The notes under the pieces: model-generated
Databases searched by the model: none
What the model was told of the DNA's origin: nothing
Seen by the model: the letters and a program-made list of their open reading frames with translations, nothing else
From: a virus
Length of the DNA: 29,264 bases
IMG/VR virus record: IMGVR_UViG_3300001533_001268
Span: 1 to 29,264 of that record
Direction: 5' to 3' (one strand)
Part shown: in pieces, positions 1,006-27,755 of the stretch
How the letters are laid out: every line of letters begins with the position of its first letter
Numbering within the stretch: position 1 is the first letter of the stretch
Translations under genes and position numbers: made by a program

Positions 1006-1591
1006 TATCGACATAAACAAACTTTCTCAGAACCAAAGAGACGTTCTTGCACGGAAGATGCAGTTTCTGCATAAAAATATAATAGAGCAGAAAAACGTAA
1101 GCCAGTGTGCCAAAGAAATGGGCGTATCGAGAAAGACTTTGCACAACTACAGGAACTCCGAAGACTGCCGGCAGGCGGCCATTCAGATGGTAGAAGACAG
1201 TGCGGTTAAGGGTCTTGACGGTGTTATGACGAAGCTTGTCGATAAACTGGAAGCAAAACGTGTTGTGGTTGTTACTGACAAAGAAGGTAATCAGTCGGTT
1301 AAAAATGTAGCGGACGAAAAAATCAGACTTGATGCTATTAAGGAGCTCTGCAAGATTTATGGAGTTTACGCACCAACAAAAACAGATGCTCAGATTACTG
1401 TTTCCGTACAATCGGATGCAGATATTTTTGCAAAAATTGAAGAAATTGAAAGAGACTGCTGCTTTGAGCCCGAATACAAAGAAGGGCCAAATGGCTATGA
1501 ACTGGTTGCGAGAGAACAGGAAACTGGTCGAAGAAGTGTCGAATCGAGGGAAAGAGCCCTATTATGCGATGCTTCCGTACAGGAACCGTAG
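992..1591 (+). CDS. terS: terminase small subunit (DNA recognition)
   Basis: A 199-residue protein directly before the terminase large subunit. Residues about 20-60 form a helix-turn-helix of the terminase small subunit/Terminase_5 kind (SQCAKEMGVSRKTLHNYRNS), which would bind the packaging site. A basic, helical middle part follows (about 75-130, DKLEAKRVVVVTDKEG... IRLDAIKELCKIYGVYAP) of the sort used for oligomerisation. TerS recruits the large subunit to concatemeric DNA. The reading frame continues to 1591 and therefore overlaps the likely terL start at 1491 by 101 bases, which is unusually long. Either the last third of this tail is dispensable or terL starts later. The identification rests on the HTH, length and position. 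Confidence 0.78.
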   Translation: MPQNSIDINKLSQNQRDVLARKMQFLHKNIIEQKNVSQCAKEMGVSRKTLHNYRNSEDCRQAAIQMVEDSAVKGLDGVMTKLVDKLEAKRVVVVTDKEGNQSVKNVADEKIRLDAIKELCKIYGVYAPTKTDAQITVSVQSDADIFAKIEEIERDCCFEPEYKEGPNGYELVAREQETGRRSVESRERALLCDASVQEP

Positions 1592-3413
1592 TGATCTTGC
1601 ACCGTCCTGGCAGTATGAAATAATATGGAATACTCCAAGCTACAAGGGTCAGGTAGCTTGCGGTGCCAACCGTATAGGCAAACCGATATGTTCGGATGAA
1701 ATTGTTCGCATGGCGGACGGCTCTTTAAAAACAATAAATAAAGTAGTCATAGGCGATTATGTTCTATCGTATGACTTAAAAACAGGTATATCTGCTCCGT
1801 CAAAAGTGGTTAATTGCTTTGATAACGGAGAGCTTGAATCTTATCGTGTTACGTTTAGTGATGGTTCTTCCGTTTCAGCAGCCGGAGAACACCCATTTCC
1901 TGTTAAGCTGAGAAGCGGAAAGTCGTGGACTCATCACGGTAAACAAAAGAAAGTGGATGTTAAGCTTAAGACTTTAAATGAACTTTTACCACGAGTAAAT
2001 AATTCTGTTTCAATGAGAACTAGAATGTTAAGCCCTGTTGAAGTATATTACTCTAAAGGTGACAATCTGCCAATAGAACCATATGCTCTTGGAGTTATAC
2101 TTGGAGATGGGTCATTTAAAAGCCCGGCAATACATTCAGCAAGCCCGTCAGTGGCCGAACGTGCTATAAAGGGGCTGTCACCATACCTTACAGGTGTAAG
2201 CGTCACAGAGAGGCGTAACTGCCTTAGGTATGGATTAAAGACAAATCCTGACAGAAACGATAACGGTACGTTTGGGTCATGTAAGTTAAAAGCAGAACTT
2301 GAAAAGCTTGGTCTTGCTGAAATCACAACGGAAACAAAGTTTGTACCACAAATGTATTTATCTGCGCCAATAGAAGATCGAAAGCAGCTTCTGGCAGGCT
2401 TGATTGATACTGACGGGTTTAAGTACGGTTTTACTGTTAAATCTTTTGCTTTAGCTGACGGATTCAGGCAGCTTGTAAGAAGCATTGGCGGTAAAGCTAC
2501 ACTGCAAGCCGTCAAAAAGCGGTGCACAAATTCGTTAAATACAGAGCATAGCGACACTTACTATAACGTTACATGGCGGGCTTATGATATCCCGGTGGAA
2601 TTGAAATACAAAATGCCGGAAATTACTAAGCGGAATTATGATTATTCGGGCAGAATAATCAGAAGCATAGAGCCAATAGGCAAGAAGCATTGCTACTGCA
2701 TTGAAATTGAGCACGAAGATCACTGTTTTTTAATTGGCGACTTTATTGCAACATGTAACTCGCAGTTGGGAGCGTTCCAGACCGCTATGATAGTTACCGG
2801 GGATCATCCCAGGTACAAATCGCCTAAAGACGGCATAGTCTGGATTATAGGCAAAGATAGTGGTCTTATAGAGGCCGTACAAAGGCCGTACTTTGAAAAG
2901 TTTATACCAAAACGCTACACAGATACCGGCAAATTCAACGGTAAATACGGTTACTGGACTTTCGATTGTGACGGAAGAAAGTGGGAAGTGTGGTTTAAGT
3001 CGTGTGATTCGGGCCGTAAAAAGTTCGAAGGTGCGAAGATTGATTTCTTCTGGTGCGACGAAGAGCCGACCGATACCGGGGTATTCTCCGAGGCAGAGCT
3101 TAGGCTTGTCGATAACGAGGGAATTTGGCTTATGACAGCCACCCCGGTTGACGGAACAGCCTGGCTTAAGAAGACAATAGAGCGGCAAGACGTTTACTCT
3201 ACTATGGCCGGTATGAAAGAAAACCCATATCTGACATACAAAGAGATAGAGAAAATATCACAGCATATGACAGAGGACGAGCGGGCTGTACGTGTTGAGG
3301 GCAAGTATATAGTATTCGGCGGTAAACCTGTTTTCCCGTGGAAGTCTATTGATAGGCTTGCAGAACACGTCAGGCCGCCCGTAGAAGGGATTTTGATGCG
3401 TAATGCAGTTTAG
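1491..3413 (+). CDS. terL: terminase large subunit, ATPase half, interrupted by an intein
   Basis: The packaging motor ATPase. The precursor is 640 residues; removing the 359-residue intein leaves a 281-residue ATPase domain. The N-extein ends in GANRIGK (residues 58-64) and the C-extein starts SQLGAF (424 on). Joined, they restore a standard Walker A GxxxxGKS, matching the ANRxGK[ST]xxGA[YF] form typical of podoviral TerL. Walker B is the FFWCDEE stretch near 3057-3077, followed by the coupling motif LMTATP near 3129-3146. The chain stops at TAG 3411-3413, before the nuclease domain, which continues in another frame from 3403. The start ATG 1491 has AAAGAAGGG upstream; 1497 and 1569 are alternatives. 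The first 101 bases overlap terS. Confidence 0.85.
   Translation: MAMNWLRENRKLVEEVSNRGKEPYYAMLPYRNRSDLAPSWQYEIIWNTPSYKGQVACGANRIGKPICSDEIVRMADGSLKTINKVVIGDYVLSYDLKTGISAPSKVVNCFDNGELESYRVTFSDGSSVSAAGEHPFPVKLRSGKSWTHHGKQKKVDVKLKTLNELLPRVNNSVSMRTRMLSPVEVYYSKGDNLPIEPYALGVILGDGSFKSPAIHSASPSVAERAIKGLSPYLTGVSVTERRNCLRYGLKTNPDRNDNGTFGSCKLKAELEKLGLAEITTETKFVPQMYLSAPIEDRKQLLAGLIDTDGFKYGFTVKSFALADGFRQLVRSIGGKATLQAVKKRCTNSLNTEHSDTYYNVTWRAYDIPVELKYKMPEITKRNYDYSGRIIRSIEPIGKKHCYCIEIEHEDHCFLIGDFIATCNSQLGAFQTAMIVTGDHPRYKSPKDGIVWIIGKDSGLIEAVQRPYFEKFIPKRYTDTGKFNGKYGYWTFDCDGRKWEVWFKSCDSGRKKFEGAKIDFFWCDEEPTDTGVFSEAELRLVDNEGIWLMTATPVDGTAWLKKTIERQDVYSTMAGMKENPYLTYKEIEKISQHMTEDERAVRVEGKYIVFGGKPVFPWKSIDRLAEHVRPPVEGILMRNAV
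1683..2759 (+). other. intein with LAGLIDADG homing endonuclease, inserted in the TerL P-loop
   Basis: In-frame 359-residue intervening protein that should splice itself out of TerL. Block A is PICSDEIVRMADG, with Pro at position 1, Asp5 and Ala-Asp-Gly at 11-13, the same register as canonical inteins that begin with Cys. Block B ends in EHPF with the conserved His at 70. Two LAGLIDADG motifs (LGVILGDG at 136-143 and LLAGLIDTDG at 236-245) mark a DOD-type homing endonuclease. Block F carries Cys339 where most inteins have Asp, block G is T-C-N followed by Ser, so the penultimate residue is Cys instead of His. The usual Cys/Ser at position 1 is missing, which suggests class 3-type branching through the block F Cys. 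Block B position 12 is Phe rather than the class 3 Trp. Confidence 0.88.
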
Positions 3414-19396: not shown

Positions 19397-20779
19397 ATGG
19401 CTATAACCAGAGAAACAAAAACATCACCGGAGATGGAGCACAGGCTTGAGGTCGAAGACGGGCTCAAGCTACTCGGAAGAAAGAAAAACTTCAACACCGC
19501 TTCCATAATGGATATAACAGACGCGGCAAAGGCAGAGTCGTACGATAAGATCGCTAAGGCTATGGAAGTCGCGGCAAAGGTTTCAAGGATCATTCCGGAC
19601 ACTGAGACAGAACCGTACCGCAAGGTAATGAAGGCTGCTTCTGAGATCGTAAACAAGAAAGAGAGCTATCCTGAGAAGTCAGAAAAGCTCAAATTTGAGT
19701 TTGAAGACCTTGAAAACGAGAAGTATAAGAAAAAAATACAAGAGGCGGTAGAATCAGGTGAATACTCACAAAAGGCCCTGATAGATTACACAGAGAACGT
19801 AGCCCTGGCAGCAAGCAGGACGGAAAAATCAAGGTTAGAGGAATCATTTTACCATACTGCACAGATGCACAGAAACCTGGTCGAGGATATAAAGGATCCG
19901 GACAGGGGAAGATTCGGCTATGCGTTCGAGACTGTAAACAACTCCAGGGCTATGGGGTTTACCAGAGCTTATACAACGCCTCTGGTCACTGCTCTGCTTG
20001 GAGAAGAATACGGGCAGGCATACAAGCGGGCATCAGAGCTTGTTGCGGCTCACGAGCCTACAGGGGCTATGGACGAGCTTGTTCAGATGACTGCTCTGAA
20101 CGCTGACCAGCTTGCGGCTTCTACAGCGATTATGGCAGGCGGTGCTGCTTTATCTACTACCGGTGTCGGTTCAGCGATAGGGCCTGGCATAATCATGTCG
20201 GGTGCTTCTATGGCTGCTGCCGTTTACAGCGGGACTGGTATGGGCACAGAGACGTACCTTGACCTCAGGGAAGCCGGGGTGGACAAGAACGTTGCTATGC
20301 TTGGCGGTACGATAACCGGCACAATAGGCGGTGCGATAGAGATTTATCTTACTTCTGCCATTGCAAAACCGCTTGGAGCTACCGTGGCTCCTGCTGCCCG
20401 TATAGCAAACCTCTACGGTATAGGCTCTAAAAAAGCACTTTCTGCCGCGAATAGAGAGGTATTGGAGAAAGCTATGGGCAGAAAGGTCGTAGAGACAGCT
20501 AAAGCCATGTCAGGAAGCAAGCAGAGACTTGCAGCTAAGTCTTTACTTATAGATAACTTAAAAGAGATAATGAAACGTCCCGGTACCATAGAGACCATAA
20601 CTAGTCTGTCAAGAGATATTACGGTTACCGGTCTTGGCGGGGGATTGGAAGAGTTTACCCAGGAGCTGCTGGAGATGGCTGTTCAGGAGACCATCAGGCA
20701 GAACCACAGCGGGCGGTATATTTCTCGAAGGTGTCATGGGCGGTGCCGGCCCGATGCTTACGCTCAGGGGAAGGCTTAA
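19397..20779 (+). CDS. giant polyvalent virion protein, N-terminal frame
   Basis: A 460-residue frame that is most likely the N-terminal part of the protein continued from about 20715 in the next frame. Residues 1-180 are charged helix. About 235-280 (STAIMAGGAALSTTGVGSAI ... AAVYSGTG) and about 298-340 (VAMLGGTITGTIGGAIEIYL) are Gly/Ala-rich hydrophobic segments, as in phage internal virion proteins that enter the membrane. The motif LGGGLEEFTQELLEMAVQ (about 415-432) normally leads straight into a sequence such as GGxFLEGVxGGAG. Here that continuation is in the +1 frame. The tail of about 23 residues to 20779 is therefore probably read-through of a shifted frame. A weak GAAAG site lies before ATG 19397. 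Confidence 0.7.
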   Translation: MAITRETKTSPEMEHRLEVEDGLKLLGRKKNFNTASIMDITDAAKAESYDKIAKAMEVAAKVSRIIPDTETEPYRKVMKAASEIVNKKESYPEKSEKLKFEFEDLENEKYKKKIQEAVESGEYSQKALIDYTENVALAASRTEKSRLEESFYHTAQMHRNLVEDIKDPDRGRFGYAFETVNNSRAMGFTRAYTTPLVTALLGEEYGQAYKRASELVAAHEPTGAMDELVQMTALNADQLAASTAIMAGGAALSTTGVGSAIGPGIIMSGASMAAAVYSGTGMGTETYLDLREAGVDKNVAMLGGTITGTIGGAIEIYLTSAIAKPLGATVAPAARIANLYGIGSKKALSAANREVLEKAMGRKVVETAKAMSGSKQRLAAKSLLIDNLKEIMKRPGTIETITSLSRDITVTGLGGGLEEFTQELLEMAVQETIRQNHSGRYISRRCHGRCRPDAYAQGKA

Positions 20780-23700
20780 ATCCAACCGTGAGTTTAACAA
20801 AGTACTTGGCGACGTAAGGAGTTATGTAGATACGCTTGGCATAAAGTATAACGGTGAGAATATATCAACGTCAAATATGAGTGACAGTGTCCGGGATATG
20901 ATAGCCAGGGAACTTTTGTTCGAGTCTATTAACGCCGGTGAGAAGGCACGCAAGGAAGGCAACACGGGAAACCTTGATCAGATACAGAAGGATGTGATTA
21001 AAAAGGTGCTCTCAGAGGTCAGAAACGAACCTTTGGCGTACATCATAGCCGATAACTCAACCATGCAGCTCAAAAAGCTTAACGATGACGGGTCTGTAGT
21101 AATATCGATAGCCGGCAAGGATCATCTTCTCAGAAGCGGAGACTTGGTCAAGACAGGCAATAAGTACAAGACCGGACGTTATATACCCAACGAGAACGGA
21201 ATGCCCGTGATCGAGCTGGCAGGGCCGTTCCAGCAGCTATACGGGCATGAGAGCGGACACGCTGTTCTTGGCGTACTGGATCTGGCGACAAAGAAGAATA
21301 TTGTTGACGCTGTTGCTGACGCTAAGGGACTTAAAACCGCTCTTGAATCGGAAGAGGCTCTGGCTGACGAGTTTGCTGAGCTGATAAACCCGGAAGCAAG
21401 ACCGACGATTAAGATGTTCCTTAATGATATGACCAAGGGCGTGAGGCGTAAGTACAAGGATCAGACAAAAAGGATAGTCCAGGAAATGGCCATGGGCTAT
21501 CTCGGTTACGATATGGACTTCTCGTTCTTAGAGCCTAAGAGTGCTGTTACCGGAGAAAACATAGAACCGATAGCGGAAGAGGATATAAACCGAGGTTCAC
21601 AGAATCAGGAAGAAAAGTCAACTTCTCAAGAACCTGAATACGATGAAATACCCGGCTTTGAAGAGTTTAATAAGATAACACAGCTTAACAGGGTTCCGCC
21701 ACAGGCAGACACTGAACAGCAGGGAGAGCCAAAACCTCGCACCAGCGATATGCCTGAAAGCAACAATCGGATGCAAAAACCGGAGCAAAGAAAAAGATTA
21801 ACCCAAAAAAACTTTGTATCTCCTAACAGGAAGCCAAGGGAGTCAACCGGCAGTTCAACGCTTCAAGAGAAGGTTAACAGAAGGTTTGTAGGTCTCATAG
21901 GCAGACCGGATCCTCAGACGGGCCAGACACTTACCGTTGATTCGGCTATGACAAAGGCCGCCGCGGCCAACGAGTACATAAACGAGGTATCTCAGGGCAG
22001 GCGTAAACTTGGCGATGATAAGGTGATGCGTAAACATGGAGTACCTGTACCCGTTATAGCATATATAAACCAGCAGCTTAAAAAAGGCGGTACGTCGCAG
22101 CAGGAAACCGTAAACGTCCCTGCGGATATAAAAGTGATTTCAGGCGGACAGTCTGGCGTTGATATAGCCGGACTTGATGCGGCCTTTGAAGCTGGACTCA
22201 AAACAGGCGGAACTGCGGCAGCTAAATTCACAAGAGAAAACGATTCAGGCCAAAAATTTAATGATTATTCTCAGGCAGAAAAATACGGCCTTGTTGAAGG
22301 TAAATCCATAATCAGATCTGGTAGATACGGCACATACTCCGACGTTTACCATGACAGAACAATAAAAAACGCACAAGAAGCAGACGGTACAATATGGTTT
22401 GGAGACAAAACCTCTCCTGGAGGAAGGCTCACTCTTGGCCAGCAAGCACAGAAAAATAAACCTCAACCGTTAATTAACCCTAAGTTGGTGTATGATATAC
22501 ATCAATGGATGGATAAAAATAATATTAATACGGTTAATATTGCAGGGAACAGAGAAAAATCCAACCCTGGTATATATAAAAACGTTAAGACATTACTAAC
22601 ACAGGCATTTAAAACTTATAATAAAAGTGCTGTATCCACAGCTACCGTCGTTCCAACTCAAGAGGGCGAAGTAAACGTTATGAGAGGCCCGCAAGGCCGC
22701 CACATGAATAGTGACGGTATAAAACCTGGAGATGCTGGATGGCTCGGCAATCCGTTTAAATGGAGCGGTAACGGCGGCAGTGGGACTGTAGAACAGGCTA
22801 TATCTAAATTTAGAGATGCTTTTTACAAAAAGCTGAGCACAGACTCACAGTTTAAGGCTGCTGTTGACGGTCTGAAAGGTAAAAAGCTCGGCTATTACAG
22901 GCCGGGAAGCCCAAATCATGCCTCAGTAATAGCGGAATATCTTAACCGTAACAATAAGAAACCAGTCTCTAAAGCGAAATCTTTCTCTGCTCCAGCAGCA
23001 ACCAGCTACGCCCAAGCTGAATCAGATATGGACAGGATGACCAAAGAGCGGTCGTGGGCCGGCAAGGACGATAAGAGTGTATGGGATGCAGCAGCCCAGG
23101 GCAGAGAAGAGTACCCCGCTGAAATACGCCGTGACAGGACGCACGTGCCTACCAAGCGGGCTAAGGCAGAACGCGAGCTTGAGCTTGCCGTAGAGAGCGG
23201 TGCGGTTGAGAGGCAGTACGCAGAGGCTCAGAGAGGCCATAAGAACGCCACTGAGAAGCGGTTATCATGGTCACGTAAGCTCAACGAGGATCAGGGCTTT
23301 GATAAGCTGCACCCGGATAAAATGACGGATATGGAAGGCCAGATGAAGCAGTCCCTGAATACACTGTACGAGATGGCAAGAAACATGGACGATGTTGATT
23401 TTGACAAGATAACGGCAGAACAGATATCTCCTGACCATTCAGAACAGTTCTTCCCTGATAATTCCTTTGAAACAACCAAACAGGCGTACCGCAGATACGC
23501 ACGTATGAAACGTGAGTATGTGGATATAGCACATGCCAGAAAGATGGCAGAGTACGGAAGATGGGCTTCGAATCAGATCGAAGACATGTACCAGTCATAC
23601 AGGGATCCGCCCGCGCTGGCTCCTAAAAAACGTGAGCAACCGGGCGGGTTCGCTAAATCTATTGTAAAACATACCAGAAAGCCGCCAAAGTCGGCAGAGT

Positions 23701-26700
23701 CAAGCACTGTAGTAAGCGAGGGGTTAGACGTTTTAACCTCAAAACTGGGTGAATCAAACGCCGCTTTCATGTACGATCGCGACCTGGCCAAGATGAACGA
23801 AGATATGGGGCCCGATAACCCCGCAACACGTGAAATGCCTGTATATGACACAGAGCGGATGCAGGATATAGGGCTTGCCGGCTCAGACGAGATTCATGTT
23901 GCCTCAGAGACCGGCACACGAAGGCTTAAAGTGGTGTTCCCGAATAACGAAGAGCTGTATTTTGATACATTCTTCTCGATGCTGGACAAGTTTATCCCGC
24001 GAACGGGAAACAAGCTTATTGATATTGTTATTAACGGTATAGTAACTGAACAGGCCCGTCAGAGTATAGACCAGTTTGACACGACTGGAAGGCTCAAGAG
24101 CGTATCAGACCTTAAGATAGGCGGCTCCACGTATTATTCCGGAGCCGTTAAGCACCTTGAAGCAGCTCTTGGGCCGGCCTGGGCCCTTAAGCTCGAATGG
24201 GGGCAGATGCTTTACAAGCTGTCTCAAAGCCTTGAAAAGCTTGGTATCGTAGAGGATATGGCCGGTAACGAGATTGATCTTGATTCTGTAACCAGTGCTA
24301 TAGAAAAAGAGCTTAACTCGGTGGCCAGCGAGATGAGTGCCGCGGCAAAGTCGTACGAACCTAAGTACAACAGATGGTCAAACAACAGAAACGTTCTGTC
24401 ACTTTACCGTGCTGTCGACCAGATGGAAGGCTGGAAGGTGCAGGCGTATTCAAGTCAGTACATACGTGAGGGCATAAACAGGTTCTTCGAGGATAGAGGC
24501 TTTAAAAGAAGGCCGCCCGATGCAGATCCTTCGGAAGATTTAAGGCACGAAGCCTGGGACGTTCGCAGCAAACTAAGAGAGGACACCGACAATCCGGAGT
24601 ACAACAATGACCAGGACGATGCAGAATCCGGCATAAAAGGGTTCTCGTTCACTGATGCAGCAGGCATGAGAGCTGTTCACGGGATAGACCTTACAGCAGA
24701 GGGTCTTCAGGAACGTGTCACAAGAATACTCACAGAACGGCTTTATGACGAGGACTCAGCATACAATATACCAAAGGGTAACCGCCACCCAACCACTGCC
24801 GTTATGGGACTCATGAACGCTCCGTACGACAGCAGGAGCAAGGTAAGGATGTTTCATGCGGATAATATACGCTTTGAGATGGCTAATGTATTTGACGAGG
24901 TTCTTAAATGGGCTGAAAATGCGAGAAAATGCGACGCGTCTCAGCGTGAAGCGTTGGAGCTTGCAAGCATTGAAGATATAAACAGGGCACTTGAGTATCG
25001 CCAGCACGAGAGAGGCGTAAACAGGGCTACACACCTAATACGAAAAGAGCTTACCGGGCAGGCAACCCCGGAAGCTGTCGAGACCAACCCGCTTGATGTA
25101 TACGTCTCAGCACGCCAGATAAGCCGGAAGCTTGAAAGCGGTGAGCTGACAACGTCGCATCCGGAAGTAAAAGCTATAGTTGACGAGTTTGCAGACCTGT
25201 ATTTGTCACAGGATCCAAACGAGGATGTGAGGTTTAAGACTACTTCACTGGAAAAAGCGGAACAGAGAGCCGCTATGTACGAGCAGACACAAAAACTCTT
25301 CGGTGGACGTGATCTGGCTACTATGGATAACGATATACATATAAAAGAGCTTAGAGACGATCTGCTCAGGGACGTATTCATGGTACAACCTGACGAGAAG
25401 CTGAGAAGTATAATCTCTGACATGATAAAGACCGGTGCCAAAAAGGCCGCGGCAGTAACCTCAACGCTTGGCGTGACGAAACAGATCAAATCTGAGCTTA
25501 CCGGTACGGAAAAGCTTTCCAGGTATAACGATATAATGGGTGCTTCTATATTCGCGGCAGAGGCTTTAAGCGAAAACGAGACCACAATCGACCATATCGA
25601 AGAGGCAATAGACGACTTCTTATCCTCTCCGGAAGCGGCCAGCCCTAAAAACGCAGGCAAACGCAGGACGATGCAGCGATACAAAGAGCTTATGCCTGTT
25701 GCCCGTGACATAGTGAACGGAAAACAGGGCATCGAGGGCCGTATGCGTGAGTTTATTACGGGTAAATACAAGGAAAACAACAGCGGGTTTAACTCCAGGT
25801 TCAGGCTTTCAAGGTTCACCGACAGCCCGATACTGGATATTTACGTGCCAAGGCTGTATCTTCGGGATAAATTCGAGGGTGAATCAGGTCTGTTCAGTGC
25901 CGGATCGCCCGTAGCAGAGGACGTTATACGCGTCAAGGTCAATGAGGTTCCAGGTGCTCCGGGAAGCGGTCGATTTGTTAAACGTAAGCTTACTTTACCG
26001 GGATCGCTGGCTCAGGGACGTACTTTTAAGTCTGATAACCTGCTTGAGTTGCTTGAGACGGCACAGAATCAGGCGATAAACTACATAGCTGACAAGACCT
26101 GGGTGCAGCAGTCGCTGGATAACGGATTCCTCAGGGACATACCGGGAGTTGGATTTACTCAGCTCGACAGCCCGCGGGCGGTTAACTTCCAGTTTGAGTT
26201 CGAAGGGCAGCGGTTTAATACGTTCGGACAGGCACTTGAGTACAAAAAGTGGCTGTATAACAAATCCAGCCGACAGGATAAGGCAAGGCTTAAAAAAAAG
26301 GACATAAAACTGGAAAAGAGCCTGCTGTACGCTCCTGATGACTTCGCAAAACGGTTCAACCGGATAACGGCAAACAGTAAAATACGTGAAAACCAGTACT
26401 TATCCCAAATACTGGCTGCATCATCATCCCTTAAAGCTATAAAGATAGCGTGGGGTATGTTCCACAGACGCGCGTATATATGGAGCTCTTTGTTTGGCGG
26501 AGCAATACCAGGCCGCGGTAAAGACTATAACGCGTCTTTCTTAAGGCGGGCTCTTGGCTACGATCTGAGACGTGAACATGGGCTTAAGGCAATTAAACAG
26601 CACAATTTCCTGCTGCTGTCAATGGGTGTCCACGGGATGACACTGTTCAAGAGTCAGGACATAGCACGTAATTCTTACGGGTTCAACAAGAAAATTGCTC

Positions 26701-27755
26701 CGGTAATAGCTAAATCAGGTATGCTTTCCACAGTATCACAGTGGACACAGCGGAGTCAGAACGAACTGTTCACAGTATTCGGGTCATCGTTTAAGGCTTC
26801 TGCTGCCCTGAACGATTATTACATTCTGTTCGATAAGCATAAGACGCAGATCGAGAACGAAAAGACCGCTTCTGAAGAAACATCTAAATTATCAACTGCC
26901 GCTCAGACATACCTGGATATGTACGGCGTACTGCCGGATGGTGTCGATGTCAGGTACTCAAAGACGGAAGAAAAGATACTCTCAAGCGTGGCCGGGCTGG
27001 TAAACGCTGATTTTGGCGGTGAGAATCTTGGCCGGCTTGGTGTATCACCGACACAGATGGACGTTGCAAGGCTTCTTCTTCTTGGGCCTGACTGGACAAT
27101 CTCAAATACACGCAGTTTTATGAAGGGGCTCTGGCACAGAGACTCAGAGATAAGCGGTGCAGGCGGATGGGTCTCCGGCAATAACCTGGAGAGAAAGCTG
27201 TATTCCACGTTCTGGATGCGCGTCATGGGTAGATCACTGCTCTTGACTGCCGTTATAAACTCGCTTATGTCTCCCTTTGACGAGCGTGAGCCTGGCGAAC
27301 GTTTGCAGGATGCCTTCCGTGCCGGTGGGTTTAAGTGGCTTATGGCTGATATTACGCCGCTGATGAGAGCTTTTGGAGAGACGGACTCAGACTTCTACCT
27401 GAACACGTTCGGGCAGTTTATAGACCCGTTTAAATACGTAACTAACCCTCCGGAATCGTTTTACCACAAGATGGCTCCGCTGAGCAAGGCCGGCGTTGAC
27501 CTGTGGACTGGTACCAGGTGGGATAAGAAGCGTGCCGTTCCTCTGTCTCAGGTTCCGGAGAAGGGGCTTTACGCGTACAGTGACCGGACGGGAACAACTC
27601 AACCCGACGAGCTGGCCTCATATGCGATATGGCACCTGATCAATATGATGCCGATACAGGCTAAAAACCGGCTTGATCTTATAACCGGAGACTCGAACAG
27701 GGTAAAATCGATACTGGAATCAGTCGGAATTGACATTAAGCAGGAGTGGAAATGA
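20736..27755 (+). CDS. giant polyvalent virion protein, main frame (peptidase-like, SLOG-like, DUF4326-like domains)
   Basis: About 2,339 residues from ATG 20736, the first usable start after the frame change; GAAGG lies four bases before it. It is 2,785 or so residues if fused to the preceding frame. Domains in order: a helical region; HESGH at 171-175 with a downstream EEALADEFAELI, resembling the ImmA/IrrE-type zinc peptidase core; a low-complexity linker (about 290-400); a molybdenum-carrier/SLOG-like domain starting ISGGQSGVD (468-476) to about 630; a DUF4326-like domain (about 646-745, WLGNPF at 669). After that comes roughly 1,600 residues of helical, charged polypeptide ending with LLLGPDWTISNTRSFMKG, as in large polyvalent proteins of phages. 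It is probably packaged and injected. Its exact functions are inferred only. Confidence 0.75.
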   Translation: MGGAGPMLTLRGRLKSNREFNKVLGDVRSYVDTLGIKYNGENISTSNMSDSVRDMIARELLFESINAGEKARKEGNTGNLDQIQKDVIKKVLSEVRNEPLAYIIADNSTMQLKKLNDDGSVVISIAGKDHLLRSGDLVKTGNKYKTGRYIPNENGMPVIELAGPFQQLYGHESGHAVLGVLDLATKKNIVDAVADAKGLKTALESEEALADEFAELINPEARPTIKMFLNDMTKGVRRKYKDQTKRIVQEMAMGYLGYDMDFSFLEPKSAVTGENIEPIAEEDINRGSQNQEEKSTSQEPEYDEIPGFEEFNKITQLNRVPPQADTEQQGEPKPRTSDMPESNNRMQKPEQRKRLTQKNFVSPNRKPRESTGSSTLQEKVNRRFVGLIGRPDPQTGQTLTVDSAMTKAAAANEYINEVSQGRRKLGDDKVMRKHGVPVPVIAYINQQLKKGGTSQQETVNVPADIKVISGGQSGVDIAGLDAAFEAGLKTGGTAAAKFTRENDSGQKFNDYSQAEKYGLVEGKSIIRSGRYGTYSDVYHDRTIKNAQEADGTIWFGDKTSPGGRLTLGQQAQKNKPQPLINPKLVYDIHQWMDKNNINTVNIAGNREKSNPGIYKNVKTLLTQAFKTYNKSAVSTATVVPTQEGEVNVMRGPQGRHMNSDGIKPGDAGWLGNPFKWSGNGGSGTVEQAISKFRDAFYKKLSTDSQFKAAVDGLKGKKLGYYRPGSPNHASVIAEYLNRNNKKPVSKAKSFSAPAATSYAQAESDMDRMTKERSWAGKDDKSVWDAAAQGREEYPAEIRRDRTHVPTKRAKAERELELAVESGAVERQYAEAQRGHKNATEKRLSWSRKLNEDQGFDKLHPDKMTDMEGQMKQSLNTLYEMARNMDDVDFDKITAEQISPDHSEQFFPDNSFETTKQAYRRYARMKREYVDIAHARKMAEYGRWASNQIEDMYQSYRDPPALAPKKREQPGGFAKSIVKHTRKPPKSAESSTVVSEGLDVLTSKLGESNAAFMYDRDLAKMNEDMGPDNPATREMPVYDTERMQDIGLAGSDEIHVASETGTRRLKVVFPNNEELYFDTFFSMLDKFIPRTGNKLIDIVINGIVTEQARQSIDQFDTTGRLKSVSDLKIGGSTYYSGAVKHLEAALGPAWALKLEWGQMLYKLSQSLEKLGIVEDMAGNEIDLDSVTSAIEKELNSVASEMSAAAKSYEPKYNRWSNNRNVLSLYRAVDQMEGWKVQAYSSQYIREGINRFFEDRGFKRRPPDADPSEDLRHEAWDVRSKLREDTDNPEYNNDQDDAESGIKGFSFTDAAGMRAVHGIDLTAEGLQERVTRILTERLYDEDSAYNIPKGNRHPTTAVMGLMNAPYDSRSKVRMFHADNIRFEMANVFDEVLKWAENARKCDASQREALELASIEDINRALEYRQHERGVNRATHLIRKELTGQATPEAVETNPLDVYVSARQISRKLESGELTTSHPEVKAIVDEFADLYLSQDPNEDVRFKTTSLEKAEQRAAMYEQTQKLFGGRDLATMDNDIHIKELRDDLLRDVFMVQPDEKLRSIISDMIKTGAKKAAAVTSTLGVTKQIKSELTGTEKLSRYNDIMGASIFAAEALSENETTIDHIEEAIDDFLSSPEAASPKNAGKRRTMQRYKELMPVARDIVNGKQGIEGRMREFITGKYKENNSGFNSRFRLSRFTDSPILDIYVPRLYLRDKFEGESGLFSAGSPVAEDVIRVKVNEVPGAPGSGRFVKRKLTLPGSLAQGRTFKSDNLLELLETAQNQAINYIADKTWVQQSLDNGFLRDIPGVGFTQLDSPRAVNFQFEFEGQRFNTFGQALEYKKWLYNKSSRQDKARLKKKDIKLEKSLLYAPDDFAKRFNRITANSKIRENQYLSQILAASSSLKAIKIAWGMFHRRAYIWSSLFGGAIPGRGKDYNASFLRRALGYDLRREHGLKAIKQHNFLLLSMGVHGMTLFKSQDIARNSYGFNKKIAPVIAKSGMLSTVSQWTQRSQNELFTVFGSSFKASAALNDYYILFDKHKTQIENEKTASEETSKLSTAAQTYLDMYGVLPDGVDVRYSKTEEKILSSVAGLVNADFGGENLGRLGVSPTQMDVARLLLLGPDWTISNTRSFMKGLWHRDSEISGAGGWVSGNNLERKLYSTFWMRVMGRSLLLTAVINSLMSPFDEREPGERLQDAFRAGGFKWLMADITPLMRAFGETDSDFYLNTFGQFIDPFKYVTNPPESFYHKMAPLSKAGVDLWTGTRWDKKRAVPLSQVPEKGLYAYSDRTGTTQPDELASYAIWHLINMMPIQAKNRLDLITGDSNRVKSILESVGIDIKQEWK

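Follow-up and report, generated by a model that had tools for sequence, protein, structure and literature searches.

An intein that begins with proline and lacks an N-terminal nucleophile raises the question of how its splicing could be initiated. Such an intein lies in the IMG/VR virus record IMGVR_UViG_3300001533_001268, of which the whole stretch analysed (29,264 nucleotides, positions 1 to 29,264) is referred to here as the window. The intein comprises 359 residues encoded at 1683-2759 and splits the ATPase P-loop of the terminase large subunit (TerL) in the form GANRIGK|P...N|S. Its sequence runs PICSDEIVRMADG...HCYCIEIEHEDHCFLIGDFIATCN, flanked by a Lys whose codon ends at 1682 and by a Ser encoded at 2760-2762. 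The terminase ATPase frame, 1491-3413, is open across the insert and ends with a stop at 3413. The insert is in frame, contains intein blocks A, B, F and G, and leaves a conserved extein upon removal, since excision joins GANRIGK to SQLGAF and thereby restores the Walker A motif. An identical intein is also found in the IMG/VR contig 3300001335_000521 (L001). The following features are referred to throughout the text.

1359..1682, plus strand: N-extein of the TerL ATPase, ending in the P-loop half GANRIGK; the start is predicted and the gene overlaps the TerS gene
1683..2759, plus strand: intein of 359 residues, Pro1 to Asn359
1683..1721, plus strand: block A (PICSDEIVRMADG), beginning with Pro1 and without a nucleophile
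1758..1805, plus strand: stretch of 16 residues between blocks A and B, which exceeds its WCT class 3 counterpart by five residues and is common to class 1 P-loop inteins
1863..1904, plus strand: block B, with Ala67 (B:7), His70 (B:10) and Phe72 (B:12)
2088..2117, plus strand: LAGLIDADG motif 1, LGVILGDGSF
2388..2417, plus strand: LAGLIDADG motif 2, LLAGLIDTDG
2688..2735, plus strand: block F, with Cys339 (F:4; codon 2697-2699), the proposed initiating nucleophile, and His347 (F:13)
2739..2759, plus strand: block G, DFIATCN, with Thr357 (G:5), Cys358 (G:6) and Asn359 (G:7)
2760..3410, plus strand: C-extein of the TerL ATPase, beginning with Ser+1 of the P-loop
3403..4116, plus strand: nuclease half of the terminase, a gene of its own

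The best explanation, to which a probability of roughly three in four is assigned, is that this is a mobile intein at the TerL P-loop which splices in a class 3-like manner and belongs to a lineage derived from class 1 TerL P-loop inteins. Its junctions, the conservation of its residues, its kinship and its horizontal movement were observed directly; the splicing chemistry is deduced from them, as are the polarity of the change of class and its independent occurrence.

The identification of the insert as an intein is supported by its predicted structure. The AlphaFold2 model of the intein with five flanking residues on each side (pLDDT 89, pTM 0.88) has the HINT fold and matches many intein structures with Z scores of 15-28. 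The best matches are endonuclease-bearing inteins such as PI-SceI, the best full-length match (Z about 27), followed by many mini-inteins of both class 1 and class 3. In Pfam and NCBIfam, the intein and endonuclease matches remain below threshold, as is expected for a diverged intein, and a scan of genome contigs returned distant partial matches only. The intein carries a putative LAGLIDADG homing endonuclease, both motifs of which retain their acidic residues. All of the residues named in the first-pass annotation are present, namely Pro1, Cys3, Asp5, Asp12-Gly13, Ala67, His70, Phe72, Cys339, Thr357, Cys358, Asn359 and Ser+1.

The intein register, with Pro1 as residue 1 and junctions at K|P and N|S, is confirmed at the level of sequence comparison and structural modelling. 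The same junctions, and the lack of an N-terminal nucleophile, had been proposed from the window alone, and intein-free relatives, structural alignment and homologous inteins now agree on them. The intein-free relatives, mostly 39-63% identical, were found by scanning with the spliced TerLs; their P-loops read, for example, CGANRIGKSQMGAF (L269), CGANRIGKSQLGAF (L271) and CGANRIGKTRIGSF (L268). The motif G[ASG]N[RQ]IGK[ST] is uninterrupted in 17 of 18 close intein-free loci, some of them near-identical (L268-L272, L274, L276-L284, L286 and L289). The remaining close locus, L273, reads SANRTGKS, and the distant intein-free L292 reads AGNKTGKT. An uninterrupted TerL reading GKPIS, which had been named beforehand as the observation that would speak against these junctions, was seen in no intein-free relative read. 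In the structural alignments, residue 1 of Msm DnaB, Mtu RecA and PI-SceI coincides with Pro1 (model residue 6), and the last aligned intein residue of each coincides with Asn359 (model residue 364). The class 3 Msm DnaB intein (6bs8) matches the model with a Z score of 18.2.

Three further viral contigs, designated L004, L009 and L031, carry a homologous intein at the same TerL site, 57-58% identical to that of the window. Together, these four inteins are termed FCT, after Phe at B:12, Cys at F:4 and Thr at G:5. Position 1 is Pro in the window and, in L004, L009 and L031, Glu, Ile and Pro, respectively, while position 3 in these three relatives is Thr, Asp and Arg. Consequently, Cys3 is not a conserved nucleophile; its candidacy was rejected because the position is variable, intein-free TerLs read GKS/T and the structural register begins at Pro1. 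All four inteins share, without exception, His B:10, Phe B:12, Cys F:4, His F:13, Thr G:5, Cys G:6, Asn G:7 and Ser+1, while residue 1 and B:7 are variable. An invariant Cys F:4 combined with a variable residue 1 is the pattern expected if Cys F:4 starts splicing.

As regards classification, a class 1 intein would have Cys, Ser or Thr at position 1, where the window has Pro1. The class 2 intein KlbA combines Ala1, Asp F:4 and Cys+1, in place of which the window has Pro1, Cys F:4 and Ser+1, and its host is TerL. Among the features of class 3, the absence of Ser, Thr or Cys at position 1, Cys F:4 and Thr G:5 are found in all four FCT inteins, and Trp B:12 is replaced by Phe in all four (Phe72 in the window). 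Under the operational rule for class 3, no Cys at position 1 and Cys at F:4 (PMC7891396), the intein counts as class 3, and the initial view that it fits no standard class is not upheld in that form. Of 1701 class 3 inteins, 6.1% have a residue other than Trp at B:12, and B:7 is unconserved in the class (PMC7891396). The biochemically proven class 3 intein AceL NrdHF has Met at B:12 and lacks His at both G:6 and F:13. Against a class 3-like mechanism with Phe72 stands the finding that aromatic residues at B:12 of AceL NrdHF abolished activity, though the native residue there is Met (PMC7891396). Two apparent peculiarities were dropped as unique features: Pro1 also occurs in the WCT-type inteins L044, L056, L059 and L215, counting from block A, and Trp B:12 is likewise missing in the WCT-group loci L098 (Phe) and L027 (Ile). 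The mixed signature thus stays inside the range of variation already documented, apart from the penultimate Cys, which occurs in no WCT row tabulated. On sequence grounds, the FCT intein appears to work like class 3 but is provisionally kept apart from the WCT class 3 clade, owing to the absence of Trp B:12 and to its phylogenetic place beside class 1 inteins.

This kinship was missed in the earlier class reading. Profile scans returned P-loop inteins closer to FCT than any WCT class 3 intein, and the nearest inteins outside FCT belong to class 1, with Cys1. The closest is L113 (stretch 1989-3068), which occupies the corresponding site, GNRIGK|S, of a related TerL encoded by two genes, combines Cys1 with Cys F:4, ends in AVGN|S, and is 46% identical to the window's intein over the intein and 43% over the splicing blocks. 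Identity to the window over the splicing blocks is 40% for L114, 39% for L033 and 37% for L115, compared with at most about 34% for the WCT rows. L115 also has Cys1 with Cys F:4 but at a neighbouring position, before SGK. Cys1 is accompanied by Asp F:4 in L033, L034, L118-L120, L193 and L195, by Asn F:4 in L114, L116 and L117, and by His F:4 in L123.

The class 1 P-loop inteins (L113, L115, L033, L034, L114, L116-L120, L193 and L195) are the best sequence matches to FCT and resemble it in several respects. Like FCT, they are inserted in the P-loop or adjoining it, with the window's own GK|S/T site used in L113, L033 and L034, and their block B is often HxFP. The stretch between blocks A and B has 16 residues in all four FCT inteins; of 14 class 1 P-loop inteins, 12 share this length and the remaining two have 14 and 15 residues. 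By contrast, it has 11 residues in 26 of 27 WCT inteins (12 in one) and in 11 of 11 class 1 helicase inteins. The penultimate His is missing from FCT and from the class 1 P-loop inteins, except L206, but is present in nearly all WCT rows. In contrast to FCT, position 1 of the class 1 P-loop inteins is Cys, while F:4 is Asp, Asn or Cys and G:5 is Thr or Val. One intein of this group, L193 (IMGVR_UViG_3300033141_004862), lies in an apparent SbcC/AAA-type ATPase rather than in TerL, so the P-loop intein group may have crossed host proteins.

The trees were calculated after removal of the trait columns (positions 1-3, B:12, F:4, G:5 and G:6) for two sets, one of 61 inteins and one of 56 rows, and the intein trees are unrooted. 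In the splicing-block tree of the first set, FCT is joined with ten class 1 P-loop inteins (98/86), while 31 WCT inteins stand apart (94/86), as do 15 class 1 helicase inteins. The full-length tree also joins FCT with class 1 P-loop inteins (98/99). In the second set, the WCT group is recovered at 99/99 and the grouping of FCT with most class 1 P-loop rows is weak (76/88). The placement of L123 and L206, long-branched inteins at the margin of the class 1 P-loop group, is uncertain. On the tree, two changes are required to account for the inteins without a position-1 nucleophile.

These results favour, somewhat beyond even odds, the view that block-F-initiated (class 3) splicing arose at least twice. 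FCT would then have lost Cys1 from a class 1 ancestor with Cys F:4, converging on Cys F:4 and Thr G:5 while having neither Trp B:12 nor the penultimate His. As Cys1 is present in both class 1 groups, its loss rather than gain is suggested, although the trees are unrooted. The combination of Cys1 and Cys F:4 proposed for the ancestor is still seen at the same site in L113. In the literature, class 3 is regarded as having a single origin (PMC4031507), and its direct descent from class 1 has been doubted (PMC7664689).

The strongest alternative is that the intein belongs to a monophyletic WCT class 3 clade, uses the block F mechanism of single origin, and has diverged with subsequent loss of Trp B:12 and the penultimate His. 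It is a possibility to be taken seriously, if clearly an outside one. The missing position-1 nucleophile, Cys F:4 and Thr G:5 are common to FCT and WCT, and the single WCT-group loci that deviate at B:12 (L098, L027) show such departures within that group. The AU test of trees uniting FCT with WCT, applied to two taxon sets and two column sets, gave p values of 0.15 and 0.092 in the first taxon set and 0.048 in the second; a single origin with WCT is consequently disfavoured but not firmly rejected. The inteins compared are short and diverged. Against this alternative, no bootstrap tree unites FCT with WCT (0 of 2,000, from 1,000 per set), the nearest neighbours of FCT are class 1 P-loop inteins, one of them at the same TerL site, and the 16-residue stretch and the loss of the penultimate His are common to FCT and class 1 P-loop inteins but not to WCT.

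The distribution of the FCT intein also reflects horizontal movement. The FCT inteins form one clade, whereas the TerLs carrying them do not (AU p 9e-108). The TerL of L031 groups with L276 and, farther off, with the TerL of the class 1-bearing L113; the intein of L031 is 64% identical to that of the window over the splicing blocks, compared with 45.5% for the exteins. Many close TerL relatives are free of the intein. The discordant histories, together with the intein-free close relatives, indicate that the intein moves between phages, as would be expected for one whose endonuclease motifs are intact. Since the P-loop of the host ATPase depends on splicing, the intein must splice in its new hosts.

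For the class 3-like reading, the following sequence of events can be proposed. His70 (B:10) would strain the Lys-Pro1 bond, which Cys339 (F:4) would attack to give a block F branched thioester. The N-extein would then move to Ser+1, Asn359 would cyclise, and an O-to-N shift would finish the extein, whose product GANRIGK-S would be a working P-loop. Thr357 may back the Cys/His pair, Phe72 may fill the place of Trp in the core, and C-terminal cleavage would proceed without a penultimate His. Each of the class 3 steps is established for class 3 inteins (PMC4031507, PMC5222942, PMC7891396). Cys339 had already been suggested as the attacking residue, and this assignment is likely, given that none of the four inteins without a position-1 nucleophile departs from Cys at F:4. 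Furthermore, F:4 and G:5 vary in Cys1 inteins and are fixed as Cys and Thr only where Cys1 is absent, which supports the block F route.

It is improbable, by comparison, that Ser+1 attacks the Lys-Pro1 bond directly, as in class 2, with Cys339 merely assisting. KlbA likewise combines the absence of a position-1 nucleophile with a non-His penultimate residue (PMC4031507). However, the residues employed in class 2 are Cys+1 and Asp F:4 (PMC4031507), the Ser+1 found here is a weaker nucleophile, and Cys F:4 never changes among the nucleophile-less inteins, at a position that varies in their Cys1 relatives. Still less probable is a degenerate intein that has lost splicing or retains cleavage only. 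Several active-site residues are odd and a class 3-type pseudogene intein is known (PMC3196547), but four divergent copies preserve the reading frame and every key residue, packaging requires TerL, and the intein is still moving between TerL lineages. A class 1 intein beginning at Cys3, with the junction I|C, has the presence of a Cys two residues downstream in its favour but can practically be dismissed, as it would leave GKPIS where intein-free relatives have GKS/T, relatives have Thr, Asp and Arg at this position, and the structural alignment begins at Pro1.

Unspliced TerL must lack an intact P-loop. A timing switch through regulated splicing, raised in the first-pass annotation, is speculation. 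A redox effect through Cys339 and Cys358 is conceivable by analogy alone, since the role of an oxidative stress sensor has been described for a class 3 DnaB intein (PMC6195587).

The WCT class 3 inteins compared include MP-Be DnaB, Dra Snf2, MchDnaB1 and Msm DnaB, as well as mycobacteriophage TerL inteins (PMC5050341). Like FCT, they have no N-terminal nucleophile and have Cys F:4, Thr G:5 and His B:10; most carry a LAGLIDADG endonuclease, and they often reside in phage ATPases, including TerL. FCT differs from them in Phe for Trp at B:12, Cys for the penultimate His, a stretch between blocks A and B longer by five residues, and a phylogenetic position adjoining class 1. The split class 3 intein AceL NrdHF provides a proven block F mechanism without Trp B:12 or the penultimate His and, like the window's intein, comes from a phage-like metagenomic contig and has Ser+1 (PMC7891396). 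Unlike the latter, it is split, has Met B:12 and Ala1, and lacks the His F:13 present in the window; identity over the structural alignment (6zgq) is 12%. The class 2 intein KlbA shares the lack of a position-1 nucleophile and the non-His penultimate residue, but has Ala1, Asp F:4 and Cys+1 and resides in another host protein (PMC4031507).

The importance of this locus lies in the occurrence of class 1 and class 3-like inteins, 46% identical, at one site of one TerL family, with a natural form combining Cys1 and Cys F:4 standing between the two kinds. Such a natural pair makes the switch of class and the origin of class 3 testable. In addition, a class 3-like intein in which Phe replaces Trp and Cys replaces the penultimate His would broaden the range of active sites known to support splicing.

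The host gene itself also calls for some correction. TerL probably starts at ATG 1359 rather than at 1491, because the N-terminus MEFTxQQ... is kept in L004 and is similar in intein-free relatives. The extein joint originally placed between Lys64 and Ser424 stands, but with this start Lys64 would become residue 108. A megablast search of the TerL ORF against phages gave no match. At 1359-1591, the last 233 nt of the TerS gene also form the beginning of the TerL gene, in a different reading frame. A comparison of seven phages showed such an overlap, 146-287 nt long, in every one, and conservation was higher in the TerL frame for 9 of 10 pairs, which suggests that protein is encoded in both frames. 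Elsewhere in the window, a 2373-aa ORF extends over 20634-27755; its sole PHROG match is weak and is to a family of unknown function. The terminase large subunit consists of two genes, for the ATPase and the nuclease, throughout the phage group of the window. In relatives with this two-gene terminase, the nuclease gene lies at the following positions.

L004, 5017-5730
L009, 4698-5402
L031, 3720-4424
L113, 3735-4481
L268, 3467-4174
L269, 3765-4475

In L004, a 120-aa ORF lies between the ATPase and nuclease genes.
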